11,622 bases of DNA from Actinomycetes bacterium. Its GTDB lineage: Bacteria > Actinomycetota > Acidimicrobiia > Acidimicrobiales > Palsa-688. Numbering within the stretch: the stretch's first letter is position 1; each line of letters begins with the position of its first letter. Location: the NCBI GenBank assembly GCA_021796905.1, contig JAKABK010000025.1:1-11622 (forward strand). Reading direction: 5' to 3'. This document shows, piece by piece, positions 962 through 8,884 of the stretch. Below the pieces are notes generated by a model, which was not told the origin of the DNA, did not search any database, and saw only the letters and a program-made list of their open reading frames with translations. The position numbers were made by a program, and so were the translations under genes.

Positions 962-1576
962 ATGGCCGGCACCGACCGGCGGCCCGACCCCGGGACCCGT
1001 GCCCTCGAGCGGCGCCGGAGCGTCGCGATGGCCGGCCACCGGGGCGACGAGACCACCGCCCGCTCCGCCCTCGGGGACCCCGACCCGGAGGTCCGGGCGA
1101 CCGCGCTAGGCGCCCTGCGACGGATGGGACGGCTGGGTCACGGCACCGTCGCCGCCGCGGTGAGCGACGCTTCGCCGCTGGTCCGCCGGCGGGCGGCGGA
1201 GCTGGCCGGGGACCCGGCGACCCTCATCGGGCTGACCGCCGACCCGGACGCGTCGGTGGTCGAAGCAGCGTGCTCCGCTCTCGGGGAGACCGGGGGAGCC
1301 GGGCGCCCCGCCGTGCCCGCCCTGGCCCGGGTCTGCGCGCAACACCCCGACCCGCGCTGCCGGGAGGCGGCCGTCGCGGCTCTAGGAGCGATCGGCGACC
1401 GAGCCGCGCTCCCCGCGATCCTCGCCGCCCTCTCCGACAAGCCGACGGTCCGCCGGCGGGCGGTGATCGCCCTGGCACCCTTCGCCGGCGCCGAGGTCGA
1501 AGCAGCCCTCGAGCGCGCCCTGGAGGACCGGGACTGGCAGGTGCGCCAGGCCGCCGAGGACCTGCTCGCTACATGA
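962..1576 (+). CDS. HEAT-repeat protein
   Basis: A 204-aa soluble protein made almost entirely of HEAT/PBS-lyase-like helical repeats. Repeat cores are visible as DPDPEVRATALGALRRMG (about 39-56), DASPLVRRRAAELAG (68-82), DPDASVVEAACSALGETG (94-111), HPDPRCREAAVAALGAIG (126-143), DKPTVRRRAVIALAPFAG (157-174) and DRDWQVRQAAEDLL (190-203). Each has the D-P-x-x-x-V-R-x-x-A-x-x-A-L signature. No catalytic domain, signal peptide or membrane segment is present, so it is most likely a protein-interaction scaffold; its partner cannot be told from sequence. ATG 962 is chosen because it sits directly on the upstream stop codon. Its 3' end overlaps the 3' end of convergent mreB by 8 bp (1569-1576), leaving no room for a separate terminator. 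Confidence 0.8.
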   Translation: MAGTDRRPDPGTRALERRRSVAMAGHRGDETTARSALGDPDPEVRATALGALRRMGRLGHGTVAAAVSDASPLVRRRAAELAGDPATLIGLTADPDASVVEAACSALGETGGAGRPAVPALARVCAQHPDPRCREAAVAALGAIGDRAALPAILAALSDKPTVRRRAVIALAPFAGAEVEAALERALEDRDWQVRQAAEDLLAT

Positions 1577-2561
1577 ACAGGTCCTTGACCGCGTCGAACT
1601 CCTCCAGGCACTTGCCGGCGCCGAGCACCACGCACTCGAGTGGAGCGTCGACGAGGTGCACCGGCAGGGCGGTCTCCTCCGCCAGGCGACGGTCGAGGCC
1701 GCGCAGCATCCCGCCACCGCCCACCAGGTGGATCCCCTGGCTGATCAGGTCCTGGGCCAGTTCGGGCGGCGCGGCCCCGAGGCACTTGACCACCGAGTCG
1801 ACGATCGCACCCACCTGCTCCTCGATCGCGCCCCGGACCTCCTCGGGGGAGAGGATCACCGTCTTCGGCAACCCGCTCATCAGGTCCCGGCCGCGCACCT
1901 CGGCCTTGATCTCCTCCTCGAGCGGCCAGGCGCTGCCGATCGCGACCTTGATCTCCTCGGCGGTCCGTTCCCCGATGGCGATCCCGTACTCGCGCCGGAC
2001 GTAGGTCTGGATCGACGCGTCGATGTCGAAGGACCCGACCCTGATCGCCTCCAGGGCGACTATCCCCCCCAGGGAGATCACCGCGGTCTCCGAGGTACCT
2101 CCCCCGACGTCGACGACCATGTTGCCGAGCGGCTCGTGGATCGGCAGGCCGGCGCCGATGGCGGCCGCCATCGGCTGGTCGATCAGGTAGGCGCCGTTGG
2201 CGCCGGCGCCCCGCGCCGCTTCCTCGACCGCCCGACGCTCCACCTCGGTGATCGCCGAAGGCACGCAGATGAGCACTCGGGGTCGGTTGAAGCGGGACAC
2301 CCCGGCACGCTCGAGCAGCAGGCGGATCATCCGTTGGGTGATGTCGAAGTCGGTGATCGCCCCCTTGCGGAGCGGTCGGACCGCGACGATGTAGCCGGGG
2401 GTCCGGCCGATCATCTGCCACGCGTCGCGTCCCATCGCGAGCACGTCCTGGCTGCGGGAGTTGAGGGCGATCACCGTCGGCTCGTTGAGGACGATCCCCC
2501 TCCCCCGCGAGTACACGAGGGTGTTGGCGGTGCCGAGGTCGATGGCGAGGTCCCTAGCCAC
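1569..2561 (-). CDS. mreB: MreB-family actin-like cell-shape protein
   Basis: A 330-aa bacterial actin homologue of the usual MreB length. MreB polymerises under the inner membrane and positions peptidoglycan synthesis. The nucleotide-binding motifs are intact: phosphate 1 IDLGTANTLVY (7-17), phosphate 2 VVDVGGGTSE (149-158) followed by ISLGGIV, and the adenosine motif GIHLVGGGGMLRGLD (276-290). The start is GTG 2561, preceded by an excellent Shine-Dalgarno (GGAGGTAGAAG before GTG). The GTG overlaps the upstream gene's stop by 8 nt (GTGGCTAG, 2554-2561), so translation is probably coupled. It is the last gene of moaE-membrane protein-mreB. No mreC, mreD, rodA or PBP gene follows; instead the gene collides with the HEAT gene, so this is not the classic mre operon. 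An Mbl-type paralogue is the alternative name. Confidence 0.93.
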   Translation of the reverse strand: MARDLAIDLGTANTLVYSRGRGIVLNEPTVIALNSRSQDVLAMGRDAWQMIGRTPGYIVAVRPLRKGAITDFDITQRMIRLLLERAGVSRFNRPRVLICVPSAITEVERRAVEEAARGAGANGAYLIDQPMAAAIGAGLPIHEPLGNMVVDVGGGTSETAVISLGGIVALEAIRVGSFDIDASIQTYVRREYGIAIGERTAEEIKVAIGSAWPLEEEIKAEVRGRDLMSGLPKTVILSPEEVRGAIEEQVGAIVDSVVKCLGAAPPELAQDLISQGIHLVGGGGMLRGLDRRLAEETALPVHLVDAPLECVVLGAGKCLEEFDAVKDLFM

Positions 2562-2922
2562 CTTCTACCTCCGAGGTGGACGCTACCTCCGAGGTGGACG
2601 ACCCGGCGGCCGACCGGCGGGTCGGGGGGGTCGAGGTGACCACCGCTGGGCGCCGGGGCGCCGGTGCGGTGGGGCCGACGGTGCGCGCCGGTGGGCGGGG
2701 CGGGGTGACCGCCGGTAGCGGGGTGCGCCGGCCGCGACGCTTGCCGGGGTGCCCCCCGGGCGAGAGGGCCTGCAGCCCACGGCTGAACGATTCGACGTTG
2801 GCCTCCAAGGACTTGGGGCGGCGATGACGCAGCGCCACCAAAACGATCAGGACCACGGCCACGACGACCGGGACCACGAGGTAGTACAGCGGCCCGAGGT
2901 GGAGCTGGAGGGCACCGATCAT
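2554..2922 (-). CDS. Small one-pass membrane protein between moaE and mreB
   Basis: Encodes 122 aa with a short extracytoplasmic or amphipathic N-terminus, one strong membrane helix (about 10-31, PLYYLVVPVVVAVVLIVLVAL), then a basic stop-transfer (RHRRPKS) and a Pro/Arg/Thr-rich, probably disordered cytosolic tail ending in the duplicated hexapeptide STSEVA/STSEVE. I recognise no family. The segment KSLEANVESFSRGLQALSP right after the helix is the least biased and perhaps conserved part. ATG 2922 has a strong ribosome site (GGGGAGGTGCGACG before ATG). The gene overlaps the moaE stop by 4 nt (ATGA, 2919-2922) and the mreB start by 8 nt, so the three genes are very likely co-translated. The context makes a membrane partner of MreB a reasonable guess, not a demonstrated role. 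Confidence 0.8.
   Translation of the reverse strand: MIGALQLHLGPLYYLVVPVVVAVVLIVLVALRHRRPKSLEANVESFSRGLQALSPGGHPGKRRGRRTPLPAVTPPRPPARTVGPTAPAPRRPAVVTSTPPTRRSAAGSSTSEVASTSEVEGG
2565..2600 (-). repeat. Perfect 18-bp tandem duplication at a gene 3' end
   Basis: CTACCTCCGAGGTGGACG occurs at 2565-2582 and again, identically, at 2583-2600. It encodes the six-residue repeat at the C-terminus of the small membrane protein. The copy nearer mreB lies within the mreB ribosome-binding region: both copies read GGAGGTAG on the minus strand, so the mRNA has a duplicated Shine-Dalgarno sequence 18 nt apart. Confidence 0.9.
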
Positions 2923-3380
2923 CGTCGCACCTCCCCCAGCGGACGGGACCCGGTGCCCCAGTCACGCCCGCCCTCCCAGGTCTCCTTCTTCCAGATCGGC
3001 ACCGACGTCTTGAGCGTGTCGATGCACCAGCGGGCGGCGTCGAAAGCGGCGTCGCGGTGCGCCGAGGAGACAGCGACGACCACCGCCGGTTCGCCGACCC
3101 CGAGGAGGCCGACCCGGTGCAGGCAGGCGAGGCGCCCGAGGTCCCAGCGTCGCCGGGCCTCGGCGGCCAGCTCCGCGATGCGCGCCAGGGCCGCCTCGGG
3201 GTAGGCCTCGTACTCGAGGCTCGTGACCCCGCTCCGACCCTCGGCGTGGTCGCGTACCAAACCGGTGAAGACCACCACCGCCCCGCAGTCGGACCGCTCC
3301 ACCCACCGGGCCGCCTCGGCGACCGGCAGACGGTCGCCGATCAGCCCGAGCCAGTCGTCGGAGTCCTGCGGGTCTGCCAT
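2919..3380 (-). CDS. moaE: Molybdopterin synthase catalytic subunit MoaE
   Basis: A 153-aa protein of typical MoaE length. MoaE, with sulfur carried on the MoaD C-terminus, converts precursor Z (cPMP) to molybdopterin in the cytosol. Diagnostic motifs are VVVFTGLVRD (35-44), the substrate-binding YEAY (57-60), HRVGLLGVGE (88-97), VAVSSAHRDAAF (102-113) and the active-site lysine motif IDTLKTSVPIWKKE (120-133). ATG 3380 gives the usual length; the frame stays open to 3857, but that would run through the divergent promoter region. A TAGCAT -10 element ends 8 nt before the ATG, so transcription likely begins at or next to the start codon. The stop overlaps the next gene by 4 nt. No moaA, moaC or moaD is in the window, so moaE stands apart from the rest of its pathway and heads an operon with mreB. 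Confidence 0.95.
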   Translation of the reverse strand: MADPQDSDDWLGLIGDRLPVAEAARWVERSDCGAVVVFTGLVRDHAEGRSGVTSLEYEAYPEAALARIAELAAEARRRWDLGRLACLHRVGLLGVGEPAVVVAVSSAHRDAAFDAARWCIDTLKTSVPIWKKETWEGGRDWGTGSRPLGEVRR

Positions 3381-3388
3381 CGCCCCCA

Positions 3389-3394
3389 ATGCTA
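3389..3394 (-). promoter_or_regulatory. -10 element of moaE, probably leaderless or near-leaderless
   Basis: On the minus strand TAGCAT (TANNNT) is followed by exactly 8 nt (TGGGGGCG) and then ATG 3380. A transcript starting 6-8 nt after the hexamer would begin at or next to the start codon. The G-run could serve as a poor ribosome site if the start lies a little upstream. No -35 box is evident. Confidence 0.5.
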
Positions 3395-3454
3395 AGGCCC
3401 CGCAGCGCCCCCCGGGACCGCTTCGGGCGACGAGCCCTCCGGGGAGCAGCTCGG

Positions 3455-3460
3455 TAACCT
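3455..3460 (+). promoter_or_regulatory. -10 element of the HtrA-like gene, probably leaderless
   Basis: TAACCT (TANNNT) is followed by 8 nt (TCGCCGAC) and GTG 3469, with no Shine-Dalgarno between. This is the geometry of a leaderless actinobacterial mRNA and the main reason for choosing GTG 3469. It mirrors the moaE promoter on the other side of the same 88-bp divergent gap. Confidence 0.55.
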
Positions 3461-3468
3461 TCGCCGAC

Positions 3469-4686
3469 GTGGAGGCCGAAGAAGGGCGAGACGACGAAGG
3501 CCCCCGGTGGGCCTGGCTCCCACCAGAGGACCGTTTGTGGCGGCACCCCTCGGAGATCGGCCCTCCCCGTACGGCGAGCACGGGGAGGACATGGAGGCGC
3601 TCCGTCACCGGGCGCACCTGGACCTCGGCGATCCTCGCCGGCGTGCTCGGCGCCCTGCTCGCCTCCGGGCTGGGCATGGCGACGGGGATCTTCGTGCACC
3701 AACCGGAACCGGTGCCGGTGCCGGTACCGGTGGCGAGCCCTGACACCACGGCTGCCGCGACGACTTCCGCCGCCGACCCGAACGGCAGCTGGCCGGCGGT
3801 CGCCAACGCCGTCGCCCCGTGCCTGGTGGGGATCGACGCCGGCGGCCAGATGGGCACCGGGGTGGTCTACACCGCTTTCCAGGACAGCACCTACATCCTG
3901 ACCGCCGCCGACGTGGTGAGCGGCGATCACCGGGTCGGCGTGCTGTGGGAGAACGGCACCCGCCAACGGGGGTCGGTGATCGGCTCCGACCCGGTCTCGG
4001 GGATCGCCGTGGTGCGGGTCTCCGGCGCCGGCCACCCCATCCCGGTGTTCGGTTCCGCTGCCGACCTGCAGGTCGCCTCGGGTGTGCTCGCCGTCGCAGC
4101 GCGCAGCACCGGGCCGGCGAGCGTCGCTCCCGGCAACCTGAGCGGGCTGGACACCGAGCTGCAGAGCCCGGGCGGCTACGACCTGCAGGGGATGCTGGCG
4201 ATCACCGGGTTGACGGTCGCCCCACCCGCCGACGGCGGGGCGCTCGTCGACCGTGCCGGCGAGGTGGTCGGGATCGACACCGACCTGACATCGGTGGCCG
4301 CGAGCATGCAAGGCGTCGCTTTCGCGGTGCCGATCGACACCGCCGAGAGGGTCGCCACCGAGATCATCGCCGGCCGCAAGCCGGTCGACCCGTGGATCGG
4401 CGTGCTCGACGCCACCGACCTGTCGACGACCACCGCGGCACAGCTCCACATCGCCGGCGGGGCGGCCATCGACTCTGTCGCCGCCGACAGCCCCGCGTAC
4501 CGCTCCGGCCTGCGATCCGGCGACATCGTGACCAGCTTCGACGGCCAGCAGGTGACCTCGGCGGGGCAGCTGGTGAGCGTCCTCGCGGCAGCCCGGACCG
4601 ACCAGCCCACCACCATCGCCTACCTGGACCGCGCCCACCTCCACCGGGCCCGGATCACCGTCGAGGGCGCGCCCGGGCCGGGATGA
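3469..4686 (+). CDS. Membrane-tethered HtrA/DegP-like protein with PDZ domain; catalytic triad substituted (pseudoprotease)
   Basis: A 405-aa protein with an acidic cytosolic N-terminus carrying W-x-LPPEDRLWRHPSE (16-29), one membrane helix (53-76), a Pro/Val linker (EPVPVPVPVASP) and Ala/Thr stretch, a trypsin-like S1C fold (about 108-290) and a C-terminal PDZ domain (about 306-400; DSPAYRSGLRSGDIVTSFDG). The topology is that of actinobacterial envelope HtrA proteases. The catalytic positions are replaced: ILTAADVVSGD has Asp148 where HtrA has the His of TxxHVV; DPVSGIAVVRV has Gly178 at the Asp of DLAVL; PPADGGALVDRAGEVVGID has Asp255 at the Ser of GNSGGPLV. The surrounding fold motifs are well kept, arguing for selection on a non-catalytic role such as substrate or lipid binding or scaffolding. 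Start GTG 3469 follows a -10 by 8 nt. The gene is divergent from moaE and convergent with the SDR gene. Confidence 0.88.
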   Translation: MEAEEGRDDEGPRWAWLPPEDRLWRHPSEIGPPRTASTGRTWRRSVTGRTWTSAILAGVLGALLASGLGMATGIFVHQPEPVPVPVPVASPDTTAAATTSAADPNGSWPAVANAVAPCLVGIDAGGQMGTGVVYTAFQDSTYILTAADVVSGDHRVGVLWENGTRQRGSVIGSDPVSGIAVVRVSGAGHPIPVFGSAADLQVASGVLAVAARSTGPASVAPGNLSGLDTELQSPGGYDLQGMLAITGLTVAPPADGGALVDRAGEVVGIDTDLTSVAASMQGVAFAVPIDTAERVATEIIAGRKPVDPWIGVLDATDLSTTTAAQLHIAGGAAIDSVAADSPAYRSGLRSGDIVTSFDGQQVTSAGQLVSVLAAARTDQPTTIAYLDRAHLHRARITVEGAPGPG

Positions 4687-4695
4687 TCCCCCGAC

Positions 4696-4731
4696 CGGGC
4701 CCACCGACCAGGCGCCGACCGGCCGGGCCCG
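4696..4731. terminator. GC-rich inverted repeat between convergent genes (possible terminator)
   Basis: The 49-bp gap between the HtrA-like gene (stop 4686) and the SDR gene (stop 4736) contains CGGGCCC (4696-4702) and GGGCCCG (4725-4731), a 7-bp stem with a 22-nt loop that holds a further GGCGCC palindrome. No U-tract follows on either strand, so its role as a bidirectional terminator is only suggested by position. Confidence 0.3.
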
Positions 4732-4735
4732 ACGG

Positions 4736-5815
4736 TCAGTCCCGGCGGTGCCGCCAGCGGACGAACAGGACCGCGATCCCCCCGAACGCCACCGTCGAGC
4801 TGGCAGCTCCGAGGAGGGTGTAGCGCTGGCGCCTCGGCGGGGGGAGGTCGTCCCAGCGGGGCCTGACATCGGCGGCGACCAACGCCTCCTCGCTGGTGTA
4901 GCGAGGCGACCAGCCAGCCGCTCTCAGGCGGTCCCCGGCCACCGCCCAGGGTGCCAGCGCGTATTGGCGGGCGTCGCGGGGCACCCCCCGGCCACCGAGT
5001 GACCACCCGATCGACCAGAGCGGCCCGATGATCCGTGGGGGCACCGACACCCGGGCGATCCCACCGGCGAGGGACCGGGCCGTCGCCTCGGTGATCCCGG
5101 CGTCGGGGGCGACGTTGTAGGCCCCCCGGAGCCGGGACGACCAGGCCGCGACGACCGCCCCGGCCAGATCGTCGACGTGGAGGTACTGGACCCTCCGGGA
5201 GGCACTGAGGTCCCCGGGGCGGGGCCCGGCGGTCCCCCCGAGCGCCCCGTAGAGCCGGGGGCCGGTGGACCCGACCGTCGCCGCCGGCCGGAGGATCGCT
5301 ACCGCCACCCCCGGCAGAGCTCCGGCCAACTCGGCGACCATGCGCTCGGCGTCGGCTTTCCCGACCGCGAAGTCCGTGGCGGGGTTCGGCCGCAGCGGCG
5401 CCGACTCGGGCAACGGCACCGGGTTGTCGGGCCACGCCCCGTAGACAGTGGCGCTCGAGAGGTGGACCAACGACGCCGGGCGCGCCGACTCCGCAGCGGA
5501 CAACACCCGTCGCAAGGCCAGGTGGTTGGCTCCTGCCACGGCCCGCCGTTCAGCCGACGACGGGCGTCGGGACCTCGCCACCCTCCAGGCGAGGTGGATG
5601 ATCCCGTCGGCGTCCCCGGCGACGCCGGCTAGCAGCGCCTCGACGTCGTCGCCGCCTGCGAGGTCGATCCGGAGGTACTCGACCCCGGCAGGCAGGAGAG
5701 GCTCGGGTGCCGAGTCGATCCCGACCACCCGGTCGACGTCTTCCCGGCCGGCGAGGAGCCGGGCGACCCTGCGGCCGAGCGATCCTGCGATCCCGGTGAC
5801 GACAACGGTGCTCAC
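4736..5815 (-). CDS. NAD-dependent epimerase/dehydratase-like SDR with C-terminal membrane segment
   Basis: A 359-aa extended-SDR protein. It starts VSTVVVTGIAGSLGRRV, carrying the Rossmann TGxxGxxG motif (7-14), followed by an acidic NAD-selecting residue (VVGID, Asp34), the HLAW strand (74-77), and the HLSSATVYG active-site serine region (118-126). The position of the catalytic YxxxK motif reads FAVGK (149-153): Lys is kept, but Tyr is Phe (codon TTC). The C-terminus has a hydrophobic helix (about 333-352, TLLGAASSTVAFGGIAVLFV) and a basic tail RWRHRRD, unusual for soluble sugar epimerases and suggesting a tail anchor. Substrate unknown; sugar-nucleotide or lipid-linked chemistry in the envelope is possible, as is a non-catalytic NAD-binding role. 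GTG 5815 is chosen because it begins right at the Rossmann strand and has AGGG 3-4 nt upstream; the long open frame beyond it overlaps the divergent gene. Confidence 0.85.
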   Translation of the reverse strand: MSTVVVTGIAGSLGRRVARLLAGREDVDRVVGIDSAPEPLLPAGVEYLRIDLAGGDDVEALLAGVAGDADGIIHLAWRVARSRRPSSAERRAVAGANHLALRRVLSAAESARPASLVHLSSATVYGAWPDNPVPLPESAPLRPNPATDFAVGKADAERMVAELAGALPGVAVAILRPAATVGSTGPRLYGALGGTAGPRPGDLSASRRVQYLHVDDLAGAVVAAWSSRLRGAYNVAPDAGITEATARSLAGGIARVSVPPRIIGPLWSIGWSLGGRGVPRDARQYALAPWAVAGDRLRAAGWSPRYTSEEALVAADVRPRWDDLPPPRRQRYTLLGAASSTVAFGGIAVLFVRWRHRRD

Positions 5816-5861: not shown

Positions 5862-7145
5862 ATGAGCTCGTTCGGGCAGTACGGCTCGGGGGGTCCCTTC
5901 GGGGACCTGATGCGGGACCTGGCGAGGTTGTTCAACTCCCCGGGACCGGTCAACTGGGAGGTGGCAGGGCAGTTCGCCCAGTGGGCCGCGTCGGGCGGCC
6001 AGCCCGAAGTGAACGTCGACCCGCTGGCCCGGGTGCGCCTCGAGGAGCTCTTGCGGGTAGCCGAGCTCCACATCGGCGAGGAGTCGGGCTTGCCGGGAGG
6101 CTCGGTGCTCTCATTGCGGTGTGCCACTCCGAGCGAGTGGGCGCGGCTCACCCTGGAAGCCTGGAAGCCACTGCTCGAACGGCTCGCGTCGGCGGCTTCC
6201 CGCTCGATGACCCCTCCTCCAGGGGAGGGTCCAGCCGGGATCGCCCCAGGCGACCTCGGCGGGCTGCTCGGCTCCTTCGGTGGGTTGCTCGGCCCGGGGG
6301 CTGCGCCGCCGGCCGGGGGAGACGACCCGGGCGCGACAGGGGCCGACCCGATGGCGGCGATGTTCGGGAACCTGCCCCGGCTGCTCGGGCCGCTGCTGTT
6401 CGGGATGCAGTCGGGTGCGATGGTCGGCGAGCTCGCCCGACGGTCGCTCGGCCAGTACGACCTCCCGATGCCCCGACCGGCCGGACCCCAGCTGCTCGTG
6501 GTCCCCTCGGGCATCGACGGGTTCGCCACCGAGTGGAGCCTGCCGCCGGACGACGTCCGCCTGTGGGTGTGCCTCCGGGAGGTCGCCCACCACACCGTCC
6601 TCGGCAGGCCGCATGTCCGGGAGCGCGTCGAGCGGCTCGTCGGCGACTACGTCGACGCCTTCGAACCCGACGCAGGGTTCCTCGAGGAGCGGCTCTCGGG
6701 TCTCGACCCGAGCGATCTCGGTTCGCTCCAGTCCGCCCTCGGTGACCCCGCCTCGCTCCTCGCCGAGATGCGCAACGACACCCAGCGGCGTCTGCAGGTC
6801 CCGCTCAACTCCTTGCTGTCGGTGGTCACCGGCTGGGTCGACCACGTGATGGAGCGAGCCGGGCGACGCCTGATCGACACCTACGGACCGCTGACCGAAG
6901 CCCTCCACCGGAGACGGCTCGAGGACCACAGCGGTGTCCGGGCGGCCGCCCAGATGTTCGGGGTGGAGCTCGACGCCGCCAGCGTCGAGCGCGGCCAGCG
7001 CTTCGTGGCCGGGGTGGTCGAGCGTGCCGGGGAGGACGCCCTCGGCCGGCTGTGGCGCTCCCCGGCCGACCTGCCCACCCCGCCCGAGGTCGACGCGCCC
7101 GGGCTGTGGCTCGCCCGCATCGACCTGGAGCTGCCCGGCGGGTAG
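5862..7145 (+). CDS. DUF2342/Zincin_2-type 'zinc-dependent metalloprotease' family protein, atypical motif
   Basis: A 427-aa protein with the layout of the actinobacterial DUF2342 family (also annotated as putative hydrolase or F420-biosynthesis-associated). It has an N-terminal NWEVAGQFAQWAA segment (31-43), a middle low-complexity Gly/Pro region (117-165), a strand LLVVPSGIDGFATEWSLP (211-228), then DDVRLWVCLREVAHHTVL (230-247). The family's HExxH-like zinc site is here R239-E-V-A-H243, lacking the first His; some relatives, from memory, also have RExxH, so hydrolase activity is doubtful rather than excluded. A second conserved-looking helix reads VVTGWVDHVMERAGRRLID (321-339). No signal peptide or membrane span. 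ATG 5862 follows a TACGAT promoter. The stop codon lies inside a 15-bp tandem repeat. Related genes often neighbour ylbL-type genes, as in this window. Confidence 0.82.
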   Translation: MSSFGQYGSGGPFGDLMRDLARLFNSPGPVNWEVAGQFAQWAASGGQPEVNVDPLARVRLEELLRVAELHIGEESGLPGGSVLSLRCATPSEWARLTLEAWKPLLERLASAASRSMTPPPGEGPAGIAPGDLGGLLGSFGGLLGPGAAPPAGGDDPGATGADPMAAMFGNLPRLLGPLLFGMQSGAMVGELARRSLGQYDLPMPRPAGPQLLVVPSGIDGFATEWSLPPDDVRLWVCLREVAHHTVLGRPHVRERVERLVGDYVDAFEPDAGFLEERLSGLDPSDLGSLQSALGDPASLLAEMRNDTQRRLQVPLNSLLSVVTGWVDHVMERAGRRLIDTYGPLTEALHRRRLEDHSGVRAAAQMFGVELDAASVERGQRFVAGVVERAGEDALGRLWRSPADLPTPPEVDAPGLWLARIDLELPGG

Positions 7146-7189
7146 CGCCCCGGCGGGTGGCACCCCGGCGGGTGGCGCCCCGGCGGGCG
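7130..7189 (+). repeat. 15-bp tandem repeat spanning the stop codon
   Basis: Three near-identical units GCGCCCCGGCGGGTG (7145-7159), GCACCCCGGCGGGTG (7160-7174) and GCGCCCCGGCGGGCG (7175-7189) are preceded by a more diverged unit (7130-7144) that encodes the last residues LPGG of the DUF2342-type protein. The TAG stop (7143-7145) sits at the first junction. The array lies in the 125-bp gap before the next gene. Confidence 0.85.
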
Positions 7190-7270
7190 AACCGGGGCCC
7201 GGTCGACGCGAGTTGCGCCACGACCGGGCAGCCCGGACAGCTCCGCTCAAGGCGACCGATCCGGGTGCCG

Positions 7271-8884
7271 ATGGGAACAGACATGGTGAGCTACCCGGGA
7301 TCATCCTCAGACGACGAGGCGGCTGCGAGCCCGTTCGACCGTTCGTCGCTCCAGGCCTCCCTGGCCGAGGCGCTCGCAGCCGCGGCCGGATCGTTCGTCG
7401 GGGAACCAGAGGCGAACGCCGGCGACGACCGCCCGGGCGAGGGCCTGGAGGTGCAGCCACTGTCGGTCGTCGGCGGCGCAGCCCCGCCTGCCGCTCCGGA
7501 GCGCCACGGCACGACCGGCGAGGCCGGAGAGGCGCTGGACGAGCTCGACGCGCTCGTCCTGCGAGGCTGGGGCAGGCCGACCGCCCAGCGCGGCGGTCCG
7601 GGGCTGGCCAGGGAGGAAGACCCGACCGGCGCCCCCGACGGAGACGGTCGCCGGGGGCTCGACGACGGGGCGGAACAGCCGGCGAAGCTCCCCCCAGCGG
7701 TGAAACCTCCGCAGACCGCCAAACTGCCCCCGCCGGTGCGGCCCTTCGCCCCGATCGACCGGTCGGCCACGGCCGGCCGCCACCAGCCGACCGGTGCGTC
7801 CGGGACCGGCTCCGGCAACTGGTTCGAGGTCGACGGGTGGGCGAGCGGGGAGCAGTGGCAGAACGGGGATCCCTCCGGTCACCTCGGCAGCGGACCGGGT
7901 GATCTCGGCAGCGGACCGGGTGATCTCGGCAGCGGCGCGCTGTCCGCTCCAGCCCCGATCACCCGCCGCGGCCCCAGCCTGTCCTCCCTGTCCCCCGAGA
8001 CCGCCGCCCTGCTCGGCGCGTCGGCTCCCAGCGGGCCCGGCAACAACGGGTCGTACCCGAACGATCCCGGGGCGTCCGGGTCGGACGGGGCCTCCGCCGG
8101 GGCCGGGACGACGGGGGCTCGCAAGGCGAAAGCGGCTGCAGCCACGCCCGATGCCGGAGCACTCGTCCCCGGGGCGGGCACCGATCGCGACGATCGGGGA
8201 GCCGCGACGGGGACGGGCTCGCCGGCACCCGGGGTCGGCACCCCAGGCGAGCAACCCGGGCTCGAGGGGATCGAGGTGCACCCCGGGATCCTCGCCGAGG
8301 CCCCGGGGTCGGGTCCCGGTCTCGACGCGGTCGGCGACAGCGCGCTAGCCACCGTCACGCTCCCGCCGACCGGTGGCGACCGCCCCGGCGAGACGGACCG
8401 GAGCCGGCCGCCAGGCGACCGTGCTGACGACCTCAGCGGTCCGGGCCCGTCGCAGACCGCTGCGCTGGCACGCTGGAGCCCGGAGCAGGACGACATCCTT
8501 CCGTCCAGGTCGATCCTCAACCGTCCGATCCCGCTCCGCCTCCACCGGGGGGCATCCGAGGACGGTGGGAGCAAGGCGATCCGCCGTCGACGCGAGCGCC
8601 CCGAGCCGGGCGGCACCGACCCCGCGCCGAGCGGACGTCGGGCCGGTAGCAGGCTCGGTACGCGAGGCGGTCCCGGGAACCCGACGCTCCCCGGGGGCCC
8701 GGGTCGCGCCGCTGGGGAGGCGAGCCCCCCCGTCGGGGGCCGCAAGCGCCGGGACGGCGGGCTACGGTCGCCGGCGGGCGCCGACGAGCCACGCGCCGGG
8801 CGACCGGGAAGCGAGGCGAAGCGGCGGGGCTCTACCGGAGTGCTCAACCGGCCCCTCGGGGAGCTGTTCAAGAAGAGCAGGTAG
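7271..8884 (+). CDS. Large intrinsically disordered protein of unknown function
   Basis: About 537 aa, dominated by Gly, Pro, Ala, Ser, Asp and Arg, with no membrane span or recognised domain. Codon third positions are strongly GC and the reading shows mixed acidic and polar residues, whereas overlapping frames are Arg/Pro-rich, so this is the coding frame. Possible short functional elements are an N-terminal acidic patch SSSDDEAAA and helix SSLQASLAEALAAAAG, an Asp-Leu-rich ALDELDALVLRGWG, an aromatic GNWFEVDGWA, a heptad repeat LGSGPGD, and a related motif occurring twice: SRSILNRPIPLRL (about residue 415) and TGVLNRPLGELFKKSR at the C-terminus. The second half becomes very basic (RRRRERPEP onward). 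The start is uncertain: ATG 7271 and ATG 7283 are both in frame, neither with a good ribosome site. It follows the DUF2342-type gene by 125 bp and may share its transcript. Confidence 0.65.
   Translation: MGTDMVSYPGSSSDDEAAASPFDRSSLQASLAEALAAAAGSFVGEPEANAGDDRPGEGLEVQPLSVVGGAAPPAAPERHGTTGEAGEALDELDALVLRGWGRPTAQRGGPGLAREEDPTGAPDGDGRRGLDDGAEQPAKLPPAVKPPQTAKLPPPVRPFAPIDRSATAGRHQPTGASGTGSGNWFEVDGWASGEQWQNGDPSGHLGSGPGDLGSGPGDLGSGALSAPAPITRRGPSLSSLSPETAALLGASAPSGPGNNGSYPNDPGASGSDGASAGAGTTGARKAKAAAATPDAGALVPGAGTDRDDRGAATGTGSPAPGVGTPGEQPGLEGIEVHPGILAEAPGSGPGLDAVGDSALATVTLPPTGGDRPGETDRSRPPGDRADDLSGPGPSQTAALARWSPEQDDILPSRSILNRPIPLRLHRGASEDGGSKAIRRRRERPEPGGTDPAPSGRRAGSRLGTRGGPGNPTLPGGPGRAAGEASPPVGGRKRRDGGLRSPAGADEPRAGRPGSEAKRRGSTGVLNRPLGELFKKSR
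7883..7935 (+). repeat. 21-bp in-frame tandem repeat (about 2.5 copies)
   Basis: A 21-bp unit beginning CTCGGCAGCGGACCGGG occurs at 7883-7903 and identically at 7904-7924, with a partial third copy at 7925-7935. It encodes the heptad LGSGPGD inside the disordered protein. Perfect identity suggests recent slippage or recombination. Confidence 0.9.

Follow-up and report, generated by a model that had tools for sequence, protein, structure and literature searches.

The window analysed here (11,622 nt; positions 1 to 11,622 of contig JAKABK010000025.1, from a member of the Acidimicrobiales) carries an HtrA-like gene whose product, as judged from its sequence, retains an intact trypsin-like fold and PDZ domain, with Asp, Gly and Asp at the positions of the catalytic His, Asp and Ser. 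The gene is present in single copy and fills a conserved chromosomal slot, many occupants of which have lost the triad. Since the gene has been kept at one chromosomal location within the order and many of its relatives are triad-less, it has probably been kept for a job other than cutting, for instance the binding of other proteins. The initial annotation had proposed a maintained pseudoprotease; the order-wide pattern, the slot, and an N-terminal W-x-HPSE motif and membrane anchor that outlast the domains behind them are added here.

Architecture of the query protein and its triad positions

The query gene, its parts and its neighbours are listed in Table 1. The position of its start is unsure, the frame being open upstream to 3223, and the stretch 3300–4900 showed no site resembling a promoter or terminator. 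The W-x-HPSE motif is followed by one membrane helix, as is characteristic of the slot family; this anchor is a single hydrophobic helix preceded by an Arg-rich stretch. Pfam matches to Trypsin_2 (aa 129–269, E 1.1e-14) and PDZ_6 (aa 334–379, E 2.6e-10) agree with the earlier description of the S1C fold motifs and the PDZ domain as preserved. Among the features of HtrA proteins (MEROPS S1C), the trypsin-like fold is present and the PDZ loop, WIGV, follows the pattern [WYF]-hydrophobic-G-hydrophobic; the His-Asp-Ser triad is absent (D148/G178/D255). The query scored below the curated cut-off of all 15 NCBIfam models listed, HtrA, DegS, MamO and MarP among them, the best being degP_htrA_DO (127.5 of 416.2 bits), with MamO at 25.3 of 800 and MarP at 20.9 of 250.

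Table 1. Query gene, its domains and triad positions, and neighbouring genes in the window
Feature	Position	Strand	Remarks
MreB	1569..2561	-	Pfam E 1.3e-129; slot neighbour
MoaE	2919..3380 (start approximate)	-	Pfam MoaE; divergent slot neighbour
Putative HtrA-like pseudoprotease gene	3469..4686	+	405 aa, GTG start, no internal stops (translation)
N-terminal motif LPPEDRLWRHPSE	3517..3555	+	residues 17-29, predicted cytoplasmic
Membrane anchor	3616..3684	+	residues 50-72; AlphaFold helix 50-72; hydropathy 1.87
Linker, Pro/Val- and Thr/Ala-rich	3694..3783	+	residues 76-105; pLDDT <50 at 83-103 (AlphaFold)
Trypsin/HtrA-fold domain without triad	3784..4368	+	residues 106-300; Pfam, HMMER alignments, AlphaFold
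Asp148, catalytic His position	3910..3912	+	codon GAC; context ILTAADVV
Gly178, catalytic Asp position	4000..4002	+	codon GGG; context DPVSGIAVV
Asp255, catalytic Ser position	4231..4233	+	codon GAC; context PPADGGALV
PDZ domain	4375..4638	+	residues 303-390; loop WIGV at 309-312
NAD-dependent epimerase	4736..5790 (start approximate)	-	neighbour in part of the loci
Zincin_2 metallopeptidase-like protein	5904..7145 (start approximate)	+	slot neighbour

Residue equivalences were taken from HMMER alignments of the query to five solved HtrA-type chains, in which D148 lies opposite the H of TNNHVV-type motifs, G178 opposite the D of SDVAVL-type motifs, and D255 opposite the S of GNSGG in four of the five chains and opposite A in the first. 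Together with the translation and the codons, these alignments bear out the assignment of Asp148, Gly178 and Asp255 to the His, Asp and Ser positions in the initial annotation. Given the loss of the triad, the protein is presumably non-catalytic.

A protein search found 330 proteins, of which the 120 listed were aligned. The eight best homologues, P0002 to P0009 (63–99% identity to the query), all read DGD, so that the alignment of orthologues suggested earlier does find the substitutions conserved; P0002 (99% identity, source not given) may represent the window's own cluster, in which case seven remain. Among the query and its 30 best homologues, D148 was present in 31/31, G178 in 28/31 and D255 in 25/31 (N in five and A in one), and D148 was one of 24 invariant positions out of 287. 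This set was not selected for D148, and alignment A1, which had been picked for that residue, was not used for invariance. Some homologues, e.g. P0010 and P0020, are placed in the Acidimicrobiales by source name. Because other sequences carry the same residues, an assembly error or chance is unlikely. Farther homologues have S/A-G-A/T or other forms, and there is also a set of HDS proteins. The motif DRLWRHP[ST]E was found in 119 of the 120 aligned homologues among those listed, P0002 beginning inside it, but as the search draws its candidates by shared words, those of the motif included, its conservation among homologues is circular.

Two explanations would preserve a chemical function in the domain. 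A protease still active through a triad at other positions would account for the intact fold and PDZ domain; however, no invariant His, Ser or Cys occurs at residues 106–392 of the query and its 30 best homologues, and we regard this explanation as extremely improbable. A re-founded site, in which, within the clade of the query, Asp148 and Asp255 bind metal or form an acid pair, would be in keeping with the frequencies of the two residues in the same set. It is nevertheless very improbable: D255 is not strict, no further ligands were identified, and elsewhere in the family the Asp equivalent to D148 is paired with K, T, P, G, I or S.

The chromosomal slot and its occupants

A DNA pattern for D-R-x-W-R-H-P-S/T-E was matched in 107 of 198 genomes of the query's order, with a single match per positive genome except in G199 (one spurious extra) and G447 (four); the reversed pattern, used as a control, gave no match in the 198 genomes. 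In a sample of the phylum, the pattern was present in 9 of 396 genomes, 8 of them in the query's order, and the ninth match, outside the order, lies in a frame of 48 codons with the sequence DRVWSHPSE. In the query's own genome (75% complete), W-x-HPSE has a single match. A separate scan of genome contigs with the query protein alone gave one locus.

The window conforms to the gene order of the slot family, MreB< MoaE< gene> (epimerase<) Zincin_2>. This order was surveyed by tblastn of the window proteins on 101 loci, of which 98 were counted, three having no long motif frame; the 98 cover 96 of the 110 rows of the triad table described below, and several are cut by contig ends. Matches anywhere in the 98 loci were obtained with MreB (93), Zincin_2 (89), MoaE (80), HEAT (78), epimerase (57), histidine kinase (55) and response regulator (35), the location of the histidine kinase, response regulator and HEAT genes varying among loci. 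A divergent MreB or MoaE gene lies at most 2 kb upstream of the slot gene in 96/98 loci and a same-strand Zincin_2 gene at most 4.5 kb downstream in 85/98; upstream and downstream neighbours occur together in 84/98, and L167 has neither.

Elsewhere in the window, a long Gly/Pro/Ser-rich frame without Pfam match (7052–8884, + strand) follows Zincin_2 and was matched in 1 of the 98 loci. A gene truncated by the left end of the contig (3–776, - strand) has a hydrophobic segment and codes for the beginning of a PDZ domain; it may encode a PDZ-Lon (YlbL/Rv3194c-like) protein. Leftward PDZ genes are similarly placed in L203, L205, L207, L209, L211, L213–L215 and L220.

Triads were tabulated for 110 rows from 109 genomes, 107 found via the motif and three (L005, G260 and G328) via the protein search, with one 148-aa fragment excluded. 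All 110 rows carry the motif, a conservation that is circular because 107 were recruited by it and the protein search also uses it. The triad is HDS in 23 rows and not HDS in 87; that the 23 intact rows show H, D and S at these columns holds by definition and is not taken as proof of equivalence. The possibility allowed for in the initial annotation, that orthologues are intact and this strain alone is different, is thus contradicted; a triad loss confined to one strain is rejected, as homologues and order-wide orthologues share it. The 84 ungapped triad-less rows present 63 distinct triplets. His is retained in 1 of the 87 triad-less rows, Asp in 31 and Ser in 7, and no triad residue is left in 51, counting a gapped column as not kept. 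With an HMM made for its intact form, the protease domain was recognised in all rows except G273, G258 and G114, G334 being weak (E 0.012), and the triplets of these highly divergent rows are unsure. The PDZ loop is retained in 79/87 triad-less and 21/23 intact rows.

Outside the order, L021–L023 have a variant motif, RERIWLHPSE, and an intact HDS triad, which fits an intact ancestor. In the same genome as L021, L114 contains an HtrA gene with RERIWLHPSE and an intact triad, with MoaE upstream and epimerase and Zincin_2 downstream.

A further sample was chosen by slot and not by exact motif. A Zincin_2 match was found in all 24 genomes sampled from the 91 without the exact motif, and 20 of the 24 regions were taken, two at contig starts and two weak matches being left out. 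In 11 of these 20 regions, an HMM search that made no use of the motif located the slot gene, and all 11 genes have a W-x-HP[SA]E variant; two further slot genes, in L211 and L216, were located through the motif. None of the 13 slot genes has HDS. The motif is followed by a hydrophobic stretch of at least 1.6 in 12 of the 13, and of 1.58 in L208. In 6/20 regions (L203, L207, L213, L214, L215 and L217), spacing and search indicate that no gene fills the slot between MoaE and epimerase/Zincin_2, with one of the 20 regions ending at a contig end. No PDZ match was obtained in L210, L211 and L216, while L218 and L220 have a PDZ match and no protease match; among the rows of the triad table, a 268-aa slot gene in L124 (G114) encodes the motif, the anchor and a PDZ domain, with no recognisable protease domain. 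The W-x-HP[SA]E motif and the anchor therefore persist without a recognised PDZ domain in the first three loci and without a recognised protease domain in the other three.

Selection, number of losses and genomic background

Values of dN/dS were obtained by the Nei-Gojobori method, which ignores G+C bias, and some pairs come from one genome, so that only the comparison of the values is meaningful. For the protease domain, dN/dS was 0.27 between the query and L005, a 72%-identical orthologue, 0.08–0.49 in eleven other triad-less pairs for which the estimate was finite (one more being saturated) and 0.24–0.36 in four intact pairs. For the PDZ domain, it was 0.51 in the query pair, above the value of its own protease domain, and 0.13–0.61 in intact pairs. 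The protease domain of the slot gene thus appears to be under purifying selection similar to that of intact orthologues. The proposal of a maintained pseudoprotease gains support from the value for the query and L005, from the substitutions common to close relatives and from the intact fold.

The slot gene might instead be in slow decay, other HtrA proteins having taken over and the gene, its triad lost, drifting towards loss. This would agree with the number of different triplets among the triad-less rows, with the longer branches of these rows, which evolve faster (median root-to-tip 2.16, vs 0.92 for intact rows), and with the missing domains and the empty slots in 6/20 regions of genomes without the exact motif. 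However, the frames are full-length, the protease-domain dN/dS of the eleven further triad-less pairs lies in the range given above, and invariant positions, including D148, are found among the query's relatives. We therefore consider slow decay decidedly unlikely.

A quick tree of 114 rows gave 4 triad changes, or 7 losses when regain of the triad is disallowed, and a careful tree of 53 rows, chosen after the first tree was known and with weak deep forks, gave 7 changes; a single clade of the 21 triad-less rows in the latter had an AU p of 0.031. On these grounds a single triad loss is not favoured. Counts from collapsed trees were discarded, as collapsing inflates the number of changes. The placement of the query differs, being inside a large triad-less clade in the 114-row tree and near the root in the 53-row tree. 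One small clade has HRF, with His kept, beside RDS and QDS, in which Asp and Ser remain; this points to an intact ancestor for that clade. Several losses of the triad are likely.

As a control, Trypsin_2 matches were collected in 12 genomes whose slot gene is triad-less; the 67 matches consisted of the 12 slot genes and 55 others. Among the latter, 48 were HDS, 3 partial (one column missing) and 4 triad-less, i.e. 48/52 intact; the first batch of 30, mostly high-scoring, was intact throughout, and 18 of the remaining 25 were intact. The motif was found in none of these 55 matches. All three other Trypsin_2 proteins of the query genome are intact, as are the eight motif-less hits among L007–L035. 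The idea that trypsin-fold proteins have loosened generally in these genomes is thus mostly rejected, and with 48/52 of the others intact and 4 triad-less, the loss is concentrated in the slot gene and not confined there. A second triad-less trypsin-fold family was observed in 4 of the 12 genomes (L268, EDQ; L269, TDQ; L270, DDR; L272, TDQ); its members share 41–65% mutual identity and have a hydrophobic segment, with no PDZ match and no motif.

A putative transmembrane adaptor and its relation to known systems

The product of the slot gene is probably a non-catalytic, HtrA-descended type II membrane protein. On the extracytoplasmic side, its HtrA body and PDZ domain would bind C-terminal or misfolded segments exposed on envelope proteins and leave them uncut; on the other side, the short DRLWRHPSE segment would dock a conserved cytoplasmic partner. 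The protein would thus serve as a transmembrane adaptor or sensor, which may in addition be capable of cleavage in those lineages whose triad is intact. We infer this role from the persistence of the motif and from domain logic, and the peptide binding or scaffolding suggested in the initial annotation fits the anatomy. MreB and Zincin_2 are candidates for a partner or client by gene neighbourhood only, and the W-x-HPSE motif could serve as a specific bait for the partner.

More tentatively, the cytoplasmic W-x-HPSE docking motif and the anchor may form the core of an order-specific transmembrane adaptor, with the HtrA body as an exchangeable module that reads the envelope. If so, repeated losses would have removed catalysis, then the PDZ or protease domain, and in some cases the gene as a whole, and the adaptor would perhaps be linked to the adjoining MreB and Zincin_2 genes. 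In L166 (G447, ~9640, - strand), a frame of ~120 aa has DRLWRHPSE and a hydrophobic stretch with no protease or PDZ match; this fits a portable motif, as one case from a genome with four motif hits.

Alternatively, the protein may be a non-catalytic chaperone or holdase: its HtrA body would trap envelope proteins in the unfolded state, with the N-terminal segment serving membrane insertion only. The fold and PDZ domain are intact, and protease-dead DegP variants retain chaperone activity, as this explanation would have it; yet W-x-HP[SA]E is present in 11/11 motif-independent slots, even without a recognised protease or PDZ domain, and a chaperone or holdase seems unlikely.

The actinobacterial HtrA proteins PepD (Rv0983) and HtrA1 (Rv1223) are active, with an intact triad and a single anchor, whereas most rows of the slot family are triad-less, and names of the type 'serine protease PepD' mislead for the majority of its members. 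No description of the family, and no occurrence of the string WRHPSE, was found in the parts of the open-access literature searched. Among the membrane proteins with a protease fold that act as adaptors or regulators are the iRhoms and the Bacillus rhomboid YqgP, according to the accounts consulted; their fold is different, they have no sequence relation to the query, and YqgP is an active protease.

According to the sections consulted of a 2008 survey, 42 of 966 prokaryotic serine proteases, in five families, were putative inactive homologues (PMC2605481). The magnetosome pseudoprotease MamO of Magnetospirillum, to which the query had been compared in principle, is likewise trypsin-like and related to HtrA; catalysis was lost, the fold retained and a non-catalytic role taken on, as the consulted part of its description has it (PMC4794232). 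MamO binds metal with H148/H263, H148 being the His just before its catalytic Asp, whereas the query has Ser177 at the equivalent of H148 and so lacks the MamO-type metal site; the W-x-HPSE motif of the query finds no mention for MamO in that part of the source (PMC4794232). In magnetotactic bacteria, such pseudoproteases are described as having arisen three times, by duplication or acquisition beside an active protease, unlike the single-copy slot gene that changed here (PMC4794232). Because the metal-site His is absent and the origin differs, the likeness to MamO holds in principle only. Inactive plant Deg/HtrA members, in the portion of the source consulted, similarly have missing triad residues or truncated domains, but are scattered paralogues, in contrast to one positional orthologue with many triplets in one order (PMC3473262).

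Known HtrA pseudoproteases are single cases, scattered plant paralogues or outcomes of duplication. In the slot family, one positional orthologue per genome provides a natural series from intact triads through triad-less proteins and PDZ-less or protease-less remnants to empty slots, and since most other trypsin-fold proteins of these genomes are intact, this series allows the roles of HtrA proteins besides cutting to be asked about.
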